Below are positions 9-46,605 of a DNA stretch of 64,000 nt, piece by piece. Position numbers and translations under genes: made by a program. Origin of the DNA: an uncultured Prevotella sp. (lineage in GTDB: Bacteria; Bacteroidota; Bacteroidia; Bacteroidales; Bacteroidaceae); NCBI GenBank assembly GCA_900315545.1, contig OMZM01000001.1:1-64000 (forward strand). The letters run 5' to 3'. Position 1 is the stretch's first letter. Every line of letters begins with the position of its first letter. Below the pieces are notes generated by a model. That model did not search any database. It was not told where the DNA came from and worked only from the letters and a program-made list of their open reading frames with translations.

Positions 9-441
9 TTTACTGTCGCGTGAGTGGCGGCGAAAGCCGTTTCGGAAATCTGAGGGGCAAAATATGCGGGTATTTTGAATGTTATTGTAATTATCTGAGA
101 GTCAGAATGATAGCGCGAAGTATGGCGGTTTTGAGGGCGAAGGAGGAGTGTTAAAATTGTCAAAGAGTATGTTTGAGATTGTCAAACAGTGTGTTTGAGG
201 CGGTCAGACATAGTGTTTGGGGGTATAGGGCATAGTGTTTTGCAGGGCAAAAAACATGAAATAGGCGCGTCAAAGGTACTCTTTGACAATTTTAACAGTT
301 GTATTTGGGTGTGGAATTAACAGATTTTTGCAATTTTAGAGGCTAAAAATTTTCTATTTGGAGAGTTTTTCTCTGTCAAAAGTTTTCATAATTTTCGGGG
401 TCGCAACGGAAGGCGCGAACACTTTGGCACGGTTTTTGCAG
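9..441 (+). repeat. Dispersed intergenic module, copy 1, ending in a sigma-54 promoter
   Basis: This stretch aligns with 10718-11110 and 29068-29500 in the same orientation. It starts at TTTACTGTCGCG and holds GGGGCAAAATATGC. A perfect 20-bp inverted repeat has arms at 150-169 and 277-296. Inside lie a near-palindrome of TGTTTGA/TCAAACA (170-188, one mismatch) and a GTCAAAG/CTTTGAC palindrome (269-287). It ends with a sigma-54 type promoter. It holds no credible coding frame. The conserved palindromes look like protein-binding sites, which is an inference. Confidence 0.85.
424..440 (+). promoter_or_regulatory. Sigma-54 (-24/-12) promoter at the end of repeat copy 1
   Basis: TTGGCACGGTTTTTGCA matches the sigma-54 consensus. 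The invariant GG (426-427) and GC (438-439) are exactly 10 bases apart. The expected start is near 451, pointing toward rlmN at 663, which would leave a leader of about 210 nt or allow a separate short RNA. Confidence 0.75.
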
Positions 442-3952: not shown

Positions 3953-3979
3953 TTGTTTGAAAAAAAATATGTAATTTTG
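3953..3979 (+). promoter_or_regulatory. Promoter of the sigma-54 activator gene
   Basis: TAATTTTG at 3972-3979 matches the -7 element, with TTG/TTTG at 3953-3959 upstream. The expected start lies within about 10 bases of the ATG at 3989, so translation most likely starts there and not at the in-frame ATG at 3953. Confidence 0.5.
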
Positions 3980-3988
3980 TCATCCATT

Positions 3989-5230
3989 ATGAATACAACT
4001 GAACTACAAAAAATAAAACAACGATATAACATTGTGGGCAACAGCGACGGCTTGAACCGTGCCCTCGACGTTGCACTGCAAGTGGCACCGACCGACCTGA
4101 GCGTACTCATCATCGGCGAAAGCGGTGTCGGCAAGGAGATTATACCACGCGTGATACACGACAACTCTCCACGCCGACGCGAAAAATACTTTGCCATAAA
4201 CTGCGGTTCCATACCAGAAGGTACCATCGACAGCGAGCTTTTCGGACACGAAAAAGGTGCATTCACAAGCGCCATCGGCGAAAGCGAAGGATACTTCGGC
4301 ATCGCAAACAAAGGCACACTGTTCTTAGACGAAGTGGGCGAACTGCCGCTTGCCACACAAGCACGACTGCTGAGAGTGCTCGAGACAGGCGAATACATAA
4401 GAGTCGGCGGACAGAAAATAATGAAAACCGACGTGAGAATAGTGGCTGCCACAAACGTCAACATGCAGAAAGCCATAAGCGAAGGACGCTTCCGCGAAGA
4501 CCTGTACTACAGGCTCAACACCATACCAATACAGATGCCACCACTGCGCGAACGCGGCGAAGACATCATACTGCTGTTCCGCCTGTTTGCCATGCAGATG
4601 GCTGAGAAGTTCCGTCTGCCACGCATCACACTGACAGACGACGCAAAGCAACAGCTGCTCAGATATAAATGGCCCGGAAACATACGACAACTGAAGAACA
4701 TAACAGAACAGATGTCGGTGCTCAGCGAGAAAAGAGAAATCGACGGAAAGACCATACAGCAATTCATTCCGATAGACGAGGAAAGCACACAGCTTGCCGT
4801 CATCAACAACAGCAGCGGCAACCATTCTTACGAAAACGAGCGCGAAACACTGTATAAGATACTCAACGAACTGAGCGGAAACGTGCGCGACCTGAAAAGG
4901 GAAATGAACGGACTGCGACAACGCATAGACGATGCAACCGAAATAACGTCGAAAGCAGTAGAAATAAGAAACAACCTGCCGGCTGTTGAGGTAAACAATG
5001 GCAAGACAGCATCGGTGTCTGCCGGAAGAATGGGCAACAACGTTGAATATGCTGAAGCAGAAGAAATATCAGAAACGGAAAGCCTTAACATCAACGAAAT
5101 AGGCAGACAGCTCATAGAAAAAGCGTTGGAGCGCAACGGAGGAAACCGGAAAAAAGCAGCAAAGGAACTCGGCTTTTCCGACCGAACACTGTACAGAAAG
5201 CTGAAACAATATGGCATGGACAACAAATAA
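3989..5230 (+). CDS. Sigma-54-dependent transcriptional activator without a sensory domain
   Basis: A bacterial enhancer-binding protein of 413 residues. The AAA+ domain starts almost at the N-terminus: Walker A GESGVGKE at 43-50, the sigma-54-contacting loop GAFTSA at 90-95, the Walker B-like LFLDEVGELP, and the R-finger region RFREDLYYRLN. A variable linker of about 100 residues is followed by a Fis-type helix-turn-helix (KKAAKELGFSDRTLYRKL) at the C-terminus. There is no receiver, PAS or GAF domain, so activity is probably set by abundance or by a partner. The gene overlaps lptE by 20 bp. Two sigma-54 promoters occur in this window. Confidence 0.94.
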   Translation: MNTTELQKIKQRYNIVGNSDGLNRALDVALQVAPTDLSVLIIGESGVGKEIIPRVIHDNSPRRREKYFAINCGSIPEGTIDSELFGHEKGAFTSAIGESEGYFGIANKGTLFLDEVGELPLATQARLLRVLETGEYIRVGGQKIMKTDVRIVAATNVNMQKAISEGRFREDLYYRLNTIPIQMPPLRERGEDIILLFRLFAMQMAEKFRLPRITLTDDAKQQLLRYKWPGNIRQLKNITEQMSVLSEKREIDGKTIQQFIPIDEESTQLAVINNSSGNHSYENERETLYKILNELSGNVRDLKREMNGLRQRIDDATEITSKAVEIRNNLPAVEVNNGKTASVSAGRMGNNVEYAEAEEISETESLNINEIGRQLIEKALERNGGNRKKAAKELGFSDRTLYRKLKQYGMDNK

Positions 5231-10717: not shown

Positions 10718-11110
10718 TTTACTGTCGCGTGAGTGCCCCCGAAAGTCATCATGAAGTAAAAAGGGGCAAAATATGCCCGTTTTTCGCGTGCAGTCTTTAT
10801 CTGTCTGACAGTCAAAACGTTAGCCGTATATATAATGATTGTGTGCAGGAAATACGAGTGTTAAAATTGTCAAAGAGCATGTTTGACATTGTCAAACACA
10901 CTGTTTGAGGATGCCAGACACAGTGTTTGAGGGTGTCAGACACTATGCAGGAGAGGCAAAAATGGGCAAAACAGAGGTGTCAAAGATACTCTTTGACATT
11001 TTTAACAGTTGCTTATCACCTCCAAATTAACATATTTTTGCTAAATCAGAGACTGTTCTGCATCTATTTTGACAGTTTTACTTTGTCAAAAAAAAATCAC
11101 AAAATCGGTC
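10718..11110 (+). repeat. Dispersed intergenic module, copy 2, promoter end lost
   Basis: It aligns with the copies at 9-441 and 29068-29500. A perfect 19-bp palindrome of TGTTTGACA around one T (10880-10898) and the palindrome TGTCAAAGA-TAC-TCTTTGACA (10978-10998) are conserved, as is GGGGCAAAATATGCCC. TATTTTTG, a -7-like element, is present near 11033. From the CTTTGTCAAA stretch on, the sequence diverges and the sigma-54 promoter found in the other copies is missing. It lies between the small RNA gene and the end of pyrD. Confidence 0.85.
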
Positions 11111-11175
11111 GGAAACGACTGTCGTGCAGTCTAAATAAGCAGTGGCAAAGAAGTCGTCGCAACTGCTCGTCAGCC

Positions 11176-12081
11176 TCATACGCAGCCTATTATCTCGCTT
11201 ATGTCGTGGCATCCGTGAGCATCAAGCCAGGCGCTGATGCCGTCGCGCACCTTCAGCGAGACAGCCGGGTCGATGAAGTTTGCCGTGCCAATCTCTATTG
11301 CCGTAGCGCCAGCCATGAAAAACTCTATGGCATCTTCAGCCGTCGAGATACCGCCAAGACCTACCACAGGGATGCTGACAGCCTTTGCCACCTGCCACAC
11401 CATGCGCACGGCGACAGGCTTGACGGCTGGTCCGCTGAGCCCGCCGATGCCGATAGACAGGCGCGGCTGGCGTCGCTCGATGTCGATAGACATGCCCATG
11501 AGCGTGTTTATCAGCGACACGGCATCGGCTCCCTCTGCCTCTACGGCACGCGCAATGTCGGCAATGTTGGTAACGTTGGGCGACAGTTTCACTATCAGGG
11601 TCTTATCGTAGTGCTTCCTTACGGCACTGACAACGGCAGCCGCGCCCTCGCACGTTACGCCGAAAGCCATGCCACCCTGCCTTACGTTAGGACACGAGAT
11701 GTTGAGCTCTATGGCAGGTATCTTCTCCAGAGCATTGATGCGAGACGCACACTCGGAATAGTCCTCGACGGAAGAACCGCTGACGTTGACAATCATGTTA
11801 GTGTCTATATCGCAAATCTGCGGGTAGATATGCTCGCAGAAATAGTCGACGCCCTTGTTCTGTAGCCCAACGCAGTTGAGCATACCCTGCGCCGTCTCGA
11901 CCATACGGGGATAGTCGTTGCCCTCGCGTGGATTCAGCGTGGTGCCTTTAACTATTATTCCGCCAAGCTCTTCAAGCGGTATGAAGTCGGCAAACTCTAT
12001 GCCGTAGCCAAACGTTCCAGACGCCGTCATCACCGGATTCTTAAGGCTCAACTTGCCTATAGATGTACTTAATCTTGCCAT
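11176..12081 (-). CDS. pyrD: Dihydroorotate dehydrogenase B, catalytic subunit
   Basis: Class 1B enzyme oxidising dihydroorotate to orotate in pyrimidine synthesis, with FMN. The 301-residue length fits the class. Motifs are [14 protein letters not shown] near the N-terminus, the active-site loop [13 protein letters not shown] with the catalytic Cys that distinguishes class 1B, and [19 protein letters not shown] near the C-terminus for FMN phosphate. It overlaps pyrK by 13 bp; PyrK passes the electrons to NAD. No terminator is seen before repeat copy 2. Confidence 0.96.
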
Positions 12082-21088: not shown

Positions 21089-21706
21089 ATGCATATAGCA
21101 ATAGCAGGAAATATTGGCAGCGGCAAGACTACGCTGACTCGCATGCTGTCCAACTATTACGGTTGGGTGCCGCGCTACGAGTCGGTAGACTTCAATCCTT
21201 ATCTCGACGACTACTACAAGGACATTCCGCGATGGTCGTTTGCTATGGAGGTGTACTTCCTGAAAGAGCGTTTCAAGGACCTTATAGCCATCAGCCAGAG
21301 CAAGGAAACGATTGTGCAAGACCGCTCCATTTTCGAGGGTGTGTATGTCTTCACTGCCAACAACAGGGCTATGGGCAACCTCACCGACCGCGACTACGAC
21401 ACTTACATGGAGCTTTTCAGCCAGATGCTCACGCTTGTGCGCATGCCCGATCTGATGATATATCTGCGCTCGTCGATAACGCATCTCGTAGAGAACATTC
21501 AGAAGCGCGGGCGCGAATACGAGCAGACGATGCAGATAGAGTATCTGCAAAACCTCAACGAGCGCTACGAAGACTTCATCTTCAAGCACTACAAGGGGCG
21601 CGTGCTGGTGCTCGATGCCGACACAATGGACTTTGAGCACAACACGTCAGACTTTGCTACCATCGTCGACAAGATAGACGCCCTGCTCTTCGGACTCTTC
21701 AAATGA
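21089..21706 (+). CDS. Deoxynucleoside kinase (dGK/dAK/dCK family), copy 1
   Basis: Phosphorylates deoxynucleosides for salvage. The 205 residues start with the P-loop IAGNIGSGKTTLTRML. PRYESVDFNPYLDDYY carries the conserved Glu and Asn, QDRSIFE is the DRS motif, and NIQKRGREYEQ is the LID with arginines. A paralogue follows after 65 bp. In Lactobacillus two such subunits form a dAdo/dGuo kinase pair; whether these pair here is unknown. Substrate preference cannot be read from the sequence. Confidence 0.9.
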   Translation: MHIAIAGNIGSGKTTLTRMLSNYYGWVPRYESVDFNPYLDDYYKDIPRWSFAMEVYFLKERFKDLIAISQSKETIVQDRSIFEGVYVFTANNRAMGNLTDRDYDTYMELFSQMLTLVRMPDLMIYLRSSITHLVENIQKRGREYEQTMQIEYLQNLNERYEDFIFKHYKGRVLVLDADTMDFEHNTSDFATIVDKIDALLFGLFK

Positions 21707-21771: not shown

Positions 21772-22386
21772 ATGCATATAGCAGTAGCAGGAAACATTGG
21801 CAGCGGCAAGACTACGCTGACACGCATGCTCTCACAGCGATACGGATGGACACCACGCTACGAGCCGGTGGACAACAACCCATATCTCGACGACTTCTAC
21901 GCTGACATGCCGCGATGGTCGTTCAATCTGCAGATTTACTTCCTCAACAAGCGGTTTCAGGAGGTTGTGGAGATTTCAAAGAGCACCGACACCATCATAC
22001 AAGACCGCACTATCTTCGAGGATGCACGCATCTTTGCGCCAAACCTTCACGGCATGGGAATGATGAGCGACCGCGACTTCGACAACTACAACGACCTGTT
22101 CGAGCTGATGATATCGCTGGTGAAACTGCCAGACCTGATGATTTACATACGCTCTACCGTGCCAAACCTCATCTCGCAGATACAAAAGCGCGGACGAGAG
22201 TATGAGCGCAGCATCAGAATAGACTATCTTGCAGGGCTCAACGAGCGCTACGAGAACTGGATAAAGACCTACGAGGGCAACCTGATAATCATAGACGGCG
22301 ACAATACGAAGTTTGAAAGCAACGTGCAAGACTTCCAGACCATCACCGACATGATTGACGGAAGACTCTACGGACTGTTCAAATAG
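21772..22386 (+). CDS. Deoxynucleoside kinase, copy 2
   Basis: A 204-residue paralogue of the preceding gene, sharing VAGNIGSGKTTLTRML, PRYEPVDNNPYLDDFY, QDRTIFED and the LID IQKRGREYERS, and ending in the same LYGLFK. Central residues that line the nucleoside pocket differ (FNLQIYFLNKRFQEVVEI against FAMEVYFLKERFKDLIAI), consistent with different specificity. It may be read from the same promoter. A 9-bp hairpin lies 48 bases beyond its stop. Confidence 0.9.
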   Translation: MHIAVAGNIGSGKTTLTRMLSQRYGWTPRYEPVDNNPYLDDFYADMPRWSFNLQIYFLNKRFQEVVEISKSTDTIIQDRTIFEDARIFAPNLHGMGMMSDRDFDNYNDLFELMISLVKLPDLMIYIRSTVPNLISQIQKRGREYERSIRIDYLAGLNERYENWIKTYEGNLIIIDGDNTKFESNVQDFQTITDMIDGRLYGLFK

Positions 22387-22501: not shown

Positions 22502-22611
22502 AAACAAGCATCTTGTAATCCGGTTACAGACCGTCTGTAAAAACATTACAAAGCATCTGTCACGCTGTTACGGAGTACTTGTCACACAATTACGGCTGAC
22601 TTGTAATTCTT
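22502..22611 (+). repeat. Five tandem 22-bp palindromic repeats (TTACA-N8-TGTAA type), locus A
   Basis: Five units of exactly 22 bp start at 22502, 22524, 22546, 22568 and 22590. Each begins TTACA (or a near form) and carries TGTAA or TGTCA thirteen bases in, so each unit is itself an imperfect palindrome. The sequence between is similar but not identical (AGCATCT, GACCGTCT, AAGCATCT). It lies between converging genes. The same unit recurs at 38676-38763. There are no spacers, so it is not a CRISPR array. Confidence 0.8.
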
Positions 22612-29067: not shown

Positions 29068-29500
29068 TTTACTGTCGCGAGAATGCCCGCGAAAGTCGTT
29101 TCGGAAATCAAAGGGGCAAAATATGCCCAAAATTCGCATGCAGATGCAACATTCTGAGAGTCAATATGTTAGCACTGAACATAGTGTTTCCTTGCAGGAA
29201 ATATAAGTGTTAAAATTGTCAAAGAGCATGTTTGACATTGTCAAACACACTGTTTGAGGAGGTCAGACATAGTGTTTTAGGGTGTCAGATGCTGTGTTTT
29301 GCAGGGCAAAACAGGCGAAATAGGTGCGTCAAAGATACTCTTTGACATTTTTAACAATTATCGGCGACCCGATTTTTCACATATTTTTGCAGTTCGAGGG
29401 GCTAAAAAATTTCTATTTTGCAAGTTTTTCTCTGTCAAAAGTTTTCATATATTTTCGTCGCGGAAACATTTTCCGTTCACTTTGGCACAGTTTTTGCATG
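29068..29500 (+). repeat. Dispersed intergenic module, copy 3, ending in a sigma-54 promoter
   Basis: It aligns over its length with 9-441 and 10718-11110. The palindrome TGTTTGACA-T-TGTCAAACA (29229-29247) is perfect, as is GTCAAAG-ATACT-CTTTGAC (29328-29346). GGGGCAAAATATGCCC near the start and a -7-like TATTTTTG near 29380 are conserved. The sigma-54 promoter is at 29481-29498. It sits between the start of dnaX and the end of the polysaccharide locus, with no gene of its own in this strand. Confidence 0.85.
29481..29498 (+). promoter_or_regulatory. Sigma-54 (-24/-12) promoter at the end of repeat copy 3
   Basis: TTTGGCACAGTTTTTGCA matches the consensus, with GG at 29484-29485 and GC at 29496-29497 ten bases apart. 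The expected start is near 29509. No protein gene follows on this strand; a strong hairpin starts about 37 bases downstream. Confidence 0.7.
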
Positions 29501-29508
29501 GAACTTGC

Positions 29509-29590
29509 CGACAGTCCTCCGCTGTTTGTCGAAGCCTGAAACAAGAAGCGTGGGGATGCATCACGAATGACGCATCCCCACGCTTGGTTT
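29509..29590 (+). ncRNA. Candidate short RNA made from the sigma-54 promoter
   Basis: Between the predicted start and the hairpin at 29546-29585 lie about 80 bases without a usable reading frame. The promoter, length and hairpin make a small RNA plausible. The hairpin could equally be the terminator of the polysaccharide operon on the other strand. This is an inference. Confidence 0.35.
29546..29585 (-). terminator. Strong hairpin at the end of the polysaccharide locus
   Basis: AAGCGTGGGGATGC (29546-29559) pairs perfectly with GCATCCCCACGCTT (29572-29585). It lies 31 bases beyond the stop of the last minus-strand gene; its minus-strand tail is CTTGTTTC. Confidence 0.7.
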
Positions 29591-29616
29591 ATCTATTCTC
29601 CCGCGTTGGGATTATC

Positions 29617-30237
29617 TCAGAGCAAATCCTGATTTATCTTTTTTATCAGCCTGCATCTGTTGCCCACAGCCAAATATCCGTCGGGAATGTCCTTTGTAAC
29701 GACACTTCCCGCCCCTATGACGCACCACCTGCCTATCTTTATGCCCTGAATGACTGTCGCGCCGGCACCTACCCAGCTGCCTTCGCCCACGCATACATCG
29801 CCACAAAGCGTCGCATGCGGCGACACATGCACATAGTTGCCTATCCTGCATTCGTGGTCGATACTTGCACCGGTATTCACGATGCAGTGTTCGCCTATCG
29901 CGGCCTTTGCCTGTATAATCGCGCCTTGCATGACGACAGTTCCCTTGCCTATCGTTGCCGACGGCGAAACGATAGCAGTTGGATGTACGGCAGTGCCGAA
30001 AAGTTCACGTTTTTCGGTGCCTGCCGCTTCTATCTTGCCTACCACTTTTCTGCGAATGGCATTGCTGCCGATGCTCACAATCAGTGGCTCTTCAAGTGTC
30101 AGTTCGTGAATAACGGGCAGACTGTCAAGCGTGCTGACAGAAGTATTGTCGTCTATTAGCTTGCCAACGCTGTCGCCTTGCGCCTCAACTATATCGCGAA
30201 TAACGCGCGCATGCCCACTTGCTCCGTATAGAATCAT
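29617..30237 (-). CDS. NeuD/PglD-type sugar O- or N-acetyltransferase
   Basis: A 206-residue left-handed beta-helix acetyltransferase. The N-terminal Rossmann-like part has the NeuD signature LYGASGHARVIRDIVE, followed by GTAVHPTAIVSPSATIGKGTVV and hexapeptide repeats. NTGASIDHECRIGNYVHVSP carries the catalytic His. Family members acetylate UDP-4-amino-sugars (PglD) or sialic acid (NeuD). The substrate here is unknown. It is the last gene of the locus, 15 bp after a GT4 gene, and no initiating phosphoglycosyl transferase is seen next to it. Confidence 0.85.
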   Translation of the reverse strand: MILYGASGHARVIRDIVEAQGDSVGKLIDDNTSVSTLDSLPVIHELTLEEPLIVSIGSNAIRRKVVGKIEAAGTEKRELFGTAVHPTAIVSPSATIGKGTVVMQGAIIQAKAAIGEHCIVNTGASIDHECRIGNYVHVSPHATLCGDVCVGEGSWVGAGATVIQGIKIGRWCVIGAGSVVTKDIPDGYLAVGNRCRLIKKINQDLL

Positions 30238-38675: not shown

Positions 38676-38763
38676 TTACAAACCCTCTGTAACACCGTGA
38701 CAAGCAACCTGTAACATCGTGACAGACCATCTGTAACAGGATTACAAGCCACTTGTAAAATTT
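38676..38763 (-). repeat. Four tandem 22-bp palindromic repeats (TTACA-N8-TGTAA type), locus B
   Basis: Units of exactly 22 bp start at 38676, 38698, 38720 and 38742. All carry TTACA or TGACA at the left and TGTAA thirteen bases in. Degenerate units may flank both ends (38654 and 38764). They match the units at 22502-22611. The 230-bp gap between two GT2 genes (38593-38822) holds this array and no gene. Confidence 0.8.
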
Positions 38764-43296: not shown

Positions 43297-44278
43297 TGTG
43301 CTTTGAGAAAAATGAATTTATTTCGGCATGCATGTATCCATGTAGTCGAGCCTTTACTTTATTTTCTGGAACTATAAAATACCTGCATTTATACAAAAAC
43401 ATCAATAATGACATTTTCATGAAACCTCTCTTGACGAACAATTTTTGAAAATCTTTATATAATGATGCAAAACCATACTCTCCACTTGAGGCATCATTAT
43501 AAATAAGGAACTTAGAAAAATAGGAGAACAACTGTTCATCATAGCATGGTTCATCTATTGTTGACAGAAAATCCTTTAAGATAATTCCAATATTCTTTAT
43601 CTCCCGTTCTTTTGTTAAAGAAGTCATTGTCGAGCCTTCATTTAGATATCTAATATATGTTGGTTGGGAAACGAATGCGATTTTATTTATTTCTTTCACA
43701 ACATTATTTAACCAATGACTATCTTCTAAAATAATACCTTCTTTAAAAAACAAGTTATTATTTATCAAAAAATCTCTTTTTATCAACTTATCACATGCAG
43801 AATCAATAATAAAAATATCTTTGGAATAAAACAATCTCCTTATAGACAAATTATCCTCTATAAAAGAATGCTTATTTATATCAATACTGTTGCCATCTAA
43901 TGCGTGAACCATACTACCTTGTATTATTTCCGCATCAGGGAAGTTCTTTTGTTTCTCAACAAAAAAGCTGATTGCATCATCTGATAATTTATCATCGCTA
44001 TCAAGAAAATATAAATAATCACCGGTAGAAGCCTTTATTCCAGAATTGCGTGCAGCAGACTGTCCTTGATTTTTGTCATGCTCTAAAAATACAAACTCAA
44101 TAGAGGCTGCTCCATTCTTTTCAATTGTTTTCTTAGCAATATCTATACTTCTATCATTAGAACAATCATCAACAAACACCACCTCCAAAGGACGATATGT
44201 TTGCTTTAACACAGACAGGACACACCTCTCTATGTATTTCTCCACATGATATACGGGGATTATTATTGAAACTTTCAT
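43283..44278 (-). CDS. GT2-family glycosyltransferase
   Basis: A 331-residue GT-A enzyme: VSIIIPVYHVEKYIERCVL, VVFVDDCSNDRSIDIA, and YLYFLDSDDKLSDDAI (DSDD metal site). EGIILEDSHWLN is the base region. The ATG at 44278 is preferred over an in-frame TTG two codons earlier. Its first 66 bases are nearly identical to a 26-codon relic at 46528-46605, so this gene start has been duplicated nearby. AT-rich relative to the neighbours. Confidence 0.88.
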   Translation of the reverse strand: MKVSIIIPVYHVEKYIERCVLSVLKQTYRPLEVVFVDDCSNDRSIDIAKKTIEKNGAASIEFVFLEHDKNQGQSAARNSGIKASTGDYLYFLDSDDKLSDDAISFFVEKQKNFPDAEIIQGSMVHALDGNSIDINKHSFIEDNLSIRRLFYSKDIFIIDSACDKLIKRDFLINNNLFFKEGIILEDSHWLNNVVKEINKIAFVSQPTYIRYLNEGSTMTSLTKEREIKNIGIILKDFLSTIDEPCYDEQLFSYFSKFLIYNDASSGEYGFASLYKDFQKLFVKRGFMKMSLLMFLYKCRYFIVPENKVKARLHGYMHAEINSFFSKHNDRK

Positions 44279-46441: not shown

Positions 46442-46527
46442 ATTCAATATTTTTAATTATACCTAATAGTATAATTTTAATGTGTAATATATTCAGATAT
46501 CATCTCCTAAAAAGAATTTTATTTGAT

Positions 46528-46605
46528 TTATAACGACAGGACACACCTCTCTATGTATTTCTCCACATGATATACAGGGATTATTATTGATATCTTATTT
46601 GACAT
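46528..46605 (-). pseudogene. 26-codon relic of a GT2 gene start
   Basis: On the minus strand it reads M-S-N-K-ISIIIPVYHVEKYIERCVLSL and stops. About 60 bases match the start of the GT2 gene at 43283-44278 with only a few differences. The rest of the gene is gone. It lies in the gap between the PP-loop and a GT2 gene, a footprint of recombination between duplicated gene starts. Confidence 0.75.

Follow-up and report, generated by a model that had tools for sequence, protein, structure and literature searches.

Evenly spaced intergenic elements with 22-bp-phased palindromic arrays and sigma-54-type promoter elements in an uncultured Prevotella genome

The chromosome of an uncultured Prevotella sp. 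has about 165 known non-coding arrays of short palindromes, the majority of them with a stress-type promoter at the end, and their minimum spacing is well above that of random placement. It is quite possible, though the chance falls a little short of even, that these are selected, spaced nucleoprotein array sites with an outward promoter of the stress type, and that their present role is structural. The assembly comprises 2.29 Mb in 56 contigs and is 92% complete; "the window" is the whole 64,000-nucleotide stretch analyzed here, positions 1-64000 of contig C17.

The element and its array in the window and the genome

Three segments of the window (9-441, 10718-11110 and 29068-29500) share related sequence in the same orientation, and all are intergenic, as originally predicted. 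They were also described as lacking a coding frame, and this stands: the long ORFs that begin within copies 2 and 3 (10927-11865 and 29299-30159) are antisense to Pfam-supported genes. Identity is 77% over 294 nt between copies 1 and 3 and 82% over 207 nt between copies 2 and 3. GGGGCAAAATATGC is common to all three, as is the palindrome GTCAAAG/CTTTGAC (3/3); TGTTTGACATTGTCAAACA, attributed to every copy, matches copies 2 and 3 perfectly and copy 1 with a single mismatch. Sigma-54 elements of the form TTTGGCAC-N2-TTTTTGCA are complete in copies 1 and 3, and copy 2 (10718-11110) is without one. Flanking genes, by Pfam, are rlmN, chorismate synthase, dihydroorotate dehydrogenase, dnaX and a hexapeptide acetyltransferase; copy 2 sits between the convergent chorismate synthase and dihydroorotate dehydrogenase genes, and the promoter of copy 3 is directed toward the 3' end of the acetyltransferase gene. 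Two further arrays with a different half-site had been missed; one of these (22502-22606, five sites) occupies a convergent intergenic gap. The features are:

9..441, + strand: copy 1, class A, 446-bp element, upstream of rlmN
160..286, + strand: 22-bp-phased array of copy 1, first site 160-176, last site 270-286
423..440, + strand: -24/-12 sigma-54 promoter element TTTGGCACGGTTTTTGCA of copy 1
3953..5230, + strand: sigma-54 activator, with a Sigma54_activat AAA+ domain and a Fis-type HTH; no receiver domain matched
10718..11110, + strand: copy 2, class C, core and array kept, different right end AAAATCACAAA, no sigma-54 element
10870..10996, + strand: 22-bp-phased array of copy 2
22502..22606, no strand: stand-alone TTACA-type array, 17-bp sites starting at 22502, 22524, 22546, 22568 and 22590
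29068..29500, + strand: copy 3, class A, between dnaX and the acetyltransferase gene
29219..29345, + strand: 22-bp-phased array of copy 3, sites starting at 29219, 29241, 29263, 29285 (degenerate) and 29329
29481..29498, + strand: -24/-12 sigma-54 promoter element TTTGGCACAGTTTTTGCA of copy 3
38676..38758, no strand: stand-alone TTACA-type array, four sites starting at 38676, 38698, 38720 and 38742

The window also holds other repeated stretches. One pair (44173-44269 and 46494-46590; 79% over 97 nt, with a common core of about 56 bp, ACAGGACACACCTCTCTATGTATTTCTCCACATGATATAC...) is intergenic and lies in the region from 39 to 64 kb, where no array was found. The other (21089-21341 and 21772-22024; 253 nt, 76% identity) falls in adjoining ORFs and is a tandem gene duplication.

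The family is far larger than the three copies first claimed, at about 144 in the genome. With up to three mismatches allowed genome-wide, GTCAAAGATACTCTTTGACA has 288 matches (about two sites per copy) and CTTTGGCACAGTTTTTGCA has 132, each against 0 for the reversed control, a recurrence far above chance. A profile built from the copies located 142 of them, one consisting of the promoter end alone, in the window and in 94 stretches around the pattern matches listed, about 100 places for each pattern; near-complete reading of three contigs added two more. The total is a lower bound (2 of the 35 copies on these contigs were absent from the pattern-based set), about half of the genome having been read, with about 2 kb covered on either side of each copy and less at contig ends. 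A copy lies within 300 bp of 21 of the 100 ends of 50 contigs examined, so the repeat seems to break the assembly.

Three classes can be distinguished: most copies are class A; nine, class B, differ in the centre but share the ends and promoter of A; and class C, to which copy 2 belongs, has different ends and as a rule no promoter. Length is nearly fixed, the distance from TAATCA to the promoter being 445-448 bp in 99 of 111 measured copies and 424-425 bp in nine (the other 31 of the 142 lacked an end, ran off a contig or did not fit the length limit). For the alignment, one of 112 near-full-length copies was dropped for gaps, and 4 of the remaining 111 are without promoter columns. The median pairwise identity is 75.6% and the highest 94.8%, with a median of 84% to the nearest neighbor, and there are 80 substitutions per copy against 0.24 deletion events (insertions not counted). 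Conservation is very uneven: 188 of 455 columns are conserved at 0.95 or above and 84 fall below 0.60, where a one-rate star model predicts at most 1 and 0, respectively. A maximum-sensitivity scan of contigs C17, C18 and C33 (97.5% read) returned 35 copies, of which 28 are full-length, five are class C (with lower scores, 209-327 bits), one is class B and one lies at a contig end, and no other fragments. On these three contigs, 40 of the 42 arrays are within called intergenic gaps.

AAC-NNN hexamer tracts (AACGGGAACGATAACCTT...) occur in the window at 441-540 and elsewhere in the genome (C33:118650, C21:27593), and 14 of the 32 such tracts in 947 kb are directly behind a promoter end, in the same orientation. 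They were considered as a transposition tail and rejected as such: they are tied to right ends, yet other tracts lie to the left of copies, in opposite orientation, or alone.

The "nested palindromes" of the original prediction are real, but all of them belong to a single array, whose unit is a 17-bp palindrome, TCAAASA-N3-TSTTTGA, on a 22-bp period. Consensus sites are at alignment columns 170, 192, 214 and 280 (170 plus five periods of 22), with frame position 236 degenerate and 258 empty; mean palindrome scores, out of 7, at 170, 192, 214, 236, 258 and 280 are 6.0, 6.9, 5.6, 3.2, 2.3 and 6.3, over a background of 2.0. Interleaved dyads are present at columns 181 and 203. Free variation of the palindromes would have counted against the prediction; the main-site columns are mostly 0.98-1.00 conserved. 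Class B (9 copies) retains the 22-bp frame with the half-site TTACA instead. Scanning for this half-site outside the copies turned up the stand-alone arrays, including the two in the window: the period-22 TTACA pattern has 106 matches per strand, class B included, against 0 for the control, and at least 22 distinct stand-alone arrays were counted manually at zero mismatches. Eight of these, compared by eye, showed no flank likeness past the array and no sigma-54 element alongside.

Palindromes of this kind could form hairpins, and one might take the unit for a structured non-coding RNA with the palindromes as its stems. This is very improbable: RNAalifold on the 111 copies (455 columns) gave -22.5 and -20.0 kcal/mol for the two strands, with no covariation support; Rfam at the gathering threshold reported two tRNAs and nothing else in the window; and the promoter is directed out of the unit. 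The anatomy suggests binding by protein. Assuming that the array is the working part of the element, its four or five palindromes of 17 bp, repeated every 22 bp exactly, or about two helical turns, would place putative protein dimers on one face of the helix, and dimers of such a DNA-binding protein might coat about 110-130 bp. At least 166 arrays would be available for this, in two half-site types, either of which can take the place of the other within an element.

Spacing, relatives and the question of mobility

Taken alone, the 142 elements define 93 gaps, none shorter than 6.26 kb; with random placement, 34 would be expected below 6 kb. The stand-alone arrays occupy larger gaps between elements. 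All 166 placed arrays together give 115 gaps with a minimum of 6,076 bp, a median of 11.3 kb and none under 6 kb, against a mean of 45.9 under random placement and never fewer than 30 in 5,000 runs. Confinement to intergenic DNA does not reproduce this: with placement on C17, C18 and C33 restricted to called intergenic gaps (5,000 runs under each of two weightings, with C18 read except for 9.3 kb and C33 except for 12.6 kb), the simulated minimum gap is at most 3.4 kb, compared with 6.1 kb observed. Most of the 12.6 kb of C33 was then read and contained no additional array. The exclusion also holds across types, all 22 TTACA arrays being at least 6 kb from every element, for which the chances multiply to about 4e-8. 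The spacing is not an artefact of retrieval by conserved patterns, because the near-full scan of three contigs found no other fragment; closer array pairs are possible elsewhere in the genome, of which about half was read and for which the TTACA arrays are those among about 100 listed places.

Such spacing is also compatible with target immunity, and the main alternative is that the elements are an old MITE-like family, now quiet, that was spread by a transposase with target immunity, the array being bound by the transposase or by an immunity protein; the host may later have become dependent on the copies. This is plausible, at appreciably less than an even chance. The element is indeed short, non-coding, multi-copy and intergenic, as MITEs are, and it occurs in high copy number, in both orientations and in a single lineage. 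Imperfect inverted repeats resembling TTGTGATT / AATCACAA mark the ends of several class C copies. The ends of Mu and Tn7 combine arrays of 22-bp sites with target immunity. BrickBuilt of Porphyromonas gingivalis is a MITE with a 23-nt tandem core (PMC4596501). On the other hand, class A ends give no inverted-repeat signal in 113 copies, and the flanks of the same copies have no excess-identity diagonal of the kind left by target-site duplication, although old duplications could have decayed. There are no young pairs among the 111 aligned copies, even the closest of which fall short of 95% identity, fragments are absent from the three scanned contigs, and immunity would have to span two array types with different half-sites. 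Of the predicted "mobile or amplified" element, then, amplification is borne out (142 copies in the fetched stretches and two more), and these same three observations, on target duplications, close pairs and fragments, leave mobility unproven.

Relatives bear on both explanations. The consensus, recurrent in this genome, is nearly absent from 39 relatives, of which 23 are congeners; a single one carries a partial related stretch (166 bp, 77%). Copies are also present in two rumen metagenome-assembled genomes, RUG13423 (uncultured Bacteroidales) and RGIG5082 (Paludibacteraceae); in each they are on a single contig, which makes misbinning of contigs from a close relative, or transfer, likely. 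Phages, plasmids and viral contigs had no match to the element or array patterns; one viral contig with two adjacent TTACA-type sites in a TTTACA-rich stretch was taken as chance.

A de novo search for phased arrays in 13 congeners shows that 22-bp-phased arrays exist in some of them as other repeat families. In G017, period 22 yielded 8 arrays in 100 kb against 0-1 at other periods, and in ten other congeners (40 kb each) it yielded 5 against 0-3; by eye, these were convincing in G001, G006 and G008 and unconvincing in G019. Ten further stretches of G001, G006 and G008 gave four real period-22 arrays, two each in G006 and G001, besides an artefact due to masked N; period 33 equalled this number and other periods fell below it. 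In G003, period 22 was not above other periods in the de novo search, and G016 had no phased array in 100 kb. TTACA-like arrays are present in G003 (18 matches against 0 for the control) and in G017. The one congener family that was mapped, in G017, has half-sites CAAAACC/GGTTTTG in a unit of about 250 bp, with ends GTAAATATTTTTC / GAATTATCTTTAC similar to those of class C, and 31 matches in 240 kb, including 7 fragments below 100 bits. Its spacing is uneven, with a minimum gap of 1.25 kb and 20 of 30 gaps under 6 kb. The congener arrays speak for a repeat lineage with a changing dialect, and against even spacing as a property of all its members. Positional conservation across species could draw on few informative genes, 9 in G017 and 20 in G003.

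The age of the copies, the lack of fragments where contigs were fully read, the uneven conservation with locked length and the cross-type exclusion favor maintenance by selection over a decaying mobile family; the confinement to one lineage, the ends of class C and the unevenly spaced G017 family point to a mobile origin. The two are compatible, as in a MITE-like repeat taken into use. Conservation together with the absence of fragments suggests that selection keeps the arrays at intervals of no less than 6 kb and usually about 11 kb; they could then serve as nucleoprotein landmarks dividing the chromosome into segments of about 11 kb. Against this stand the unevenly spaced G017 family, the restriction of the element to one lineage, which is odd for a basic chromosome function, and the presence of GT rather than GC at -12 in 32 of 126 promoter elements; the five class C copies of the three scanned contigs, moreover, could be older, decaying ones.

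The promoter element, its activator and neighboring genes

The sigma-54 promoter element is reached by 126 of the 142 copies, with GC at -12 in 94 and GT in the others, and it has the TGGCAC-N5-TTGC form of sigma-54-dependent promoters. This genome has 129 exact matches to the pattern, and the 39 others have between 0 and 2 each. The rpoN gene on which the original prediction depended is present as one match, and the product of 3953-5230 is the only strong activator found in the 92% complete genome (7.5e-65; three others are weak, 1.7e-9 to 3.4e-5). Six pattern matches lie outside the copies. By manual reading, groES, grpE and a clpB-like gene each follow one of them, a fourth lies before a secreted-protein-like gene, a fifth before no clear gene, and the sixth is a poor match. 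Of 32 congener promoter loci inspected, 15 precede htpG, dnaK, groES, grpE, clpB or dnaJ-like genes, as named by manual reading of N-terminal translations, and the others precede other ORFs or none. A sigma-54 chaperone regulon has been described for Bacteroidota (PMC12316311). The chaperone genes behind like promoters, outside the copies and in congeners, indicate that the elements carry a promoter of the chaperone type. At groES in this genome (C34:22078-22453) two sigma-54-type elements lie in tandem at a distance of 156 bp, one belonging to groES (-12 GT) and one to the element copy just upstream.

The arrangement had been read as a promoter-plus-enhancer cassette; extended to the whole family, with the array as the enhancer of the activator, this would place about 126 sites in an RpoN stress regulon. 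Several observations fit: the sites are roughly 150-260 bp upstream of the -24/-12 element with the spacing locked, the genome encodes RpoN and one strong activator, one copy directly precedes groES, and three of 20 regions upstream of other sigma-54-type promoters hold a partial site better than chance, with clpB-like genes following in two cases. We nevertheless consider this reading unlikely. Among copies with a called downstream gene (simple ORF calls), 73 have the promoter directed at a gene start and 51 at a gene end (p=0.06), which is close to random and makes service to neighboring genes unlikely as its general role. Activator orthologues in nine congeners are 69-77% identical with nearly the same recognition helix, and the 23 congeners lack the element save for the one partial stretch. 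The array motif is not enriched at other sigma-54-type promoters, 17 of 20 upstream regions having p>0.05 and three falling below where one is expected. Class B has the same promoter with another array, and the eight stand-alone arrays compared by eye are without such a promoter beside them. With promoter direction near random and the activator HTH nearly unchanged in relatives without the element, the cassette reading is only partly right: the sigma-54-type promoter elements hold up, and an enhancer role of the palindromes for the 3953-5230 activator is not supported.

Returning to spaced nucleoprotein arrays, the chaperone-type sigma-54 element that lies roughly 150-260 bp downstream of the array sites in most copies would add a response to proteotoxic stress, in which RpoN and the single strong activator may drive outward transcripts from up to about 126 elements. 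The full version, in which about 165 maintained arrays with interchangeable dialects divide the chromosome at about 11-kb intervals and about 126 of them fire outward sigma-54 stress transcripts, is possible but rather doubtful.

Known systems and significance

Porphyromonas gingivalis, the host of BrickBuilt, belongs to the same order of bacteria. BrickBuilt resembles the present element in being intergenic, with a leader and a tail of unequal length flanking a tandem core of short period (23 nt) and with outward promoter activity reported in E. coli; it has 19 copies, terminal inverted repeats and a variable repeat number (PMC4596501). The element, unlike BrickBuilt, has about 144 copies, fixed length, a fixed 22-bp palindromic array, a sigma-54 element and a hard minimum spacing. 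Membership in BrickBuilt was considered and set aside on length (445-448 bp in 99 of 111 measured copies) and period (22 bp). REP and BIME sequences are likewise palindromic and often exceed 100 copies per genome, and are protein-binding, but REPs are 20-40 bp long (PMC2817692, PMC3733652), compared with a 446-bp unit with phased array, promoter element and even spacing. The Bacteroidota sigma-54 regulon covers the same kinds of genes that the genus has behind such promoters (GroES, GrpE, DnaK, HSP90 and others; PMC12316311). Here, unlike in that regulon, the element is multiplied about 126-fold within a repeat.

Palindromic sites upstream of a consensus -24/-12 promoter are typical of sigma-54 systems of the NtrC/NifA type, as in the element; unlike in those, the array motif is not tied to the sole strong activator and there is no consistent downstream gene. 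The uptake sequences of Haemophilus and Neisseria are also numerous and spaced more evenly than random, but they are short single sites and far denser, where the arrays here are about 110 bp long and about 11 kb apart. No description of the element was found in the literature covered, which largely excluded subscription journals.

Bacterial chromosomes are thought to be organized in topological domains of about 10 kb, and no sequence is known to us that sets domain borders genome-wide. An evenly spaced repeat, conserved copy by copy and free of fragments where contigs were fully read, offers a concrete handle on that question. If the arrays do mark domains, they would amount to a sequence-encoded domain system in a bacterium; if they are a mobile element, target immunity would have left a trace rarely preserved within a genome, the 6-kb exclusion zone, and the roughly 126 stress-type promoters would illustrate promoter amplification to a striking degree. 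In this Prevotella the arrays may mark out the whole chromosome, or they may be an old mobile element that has since been given a use.
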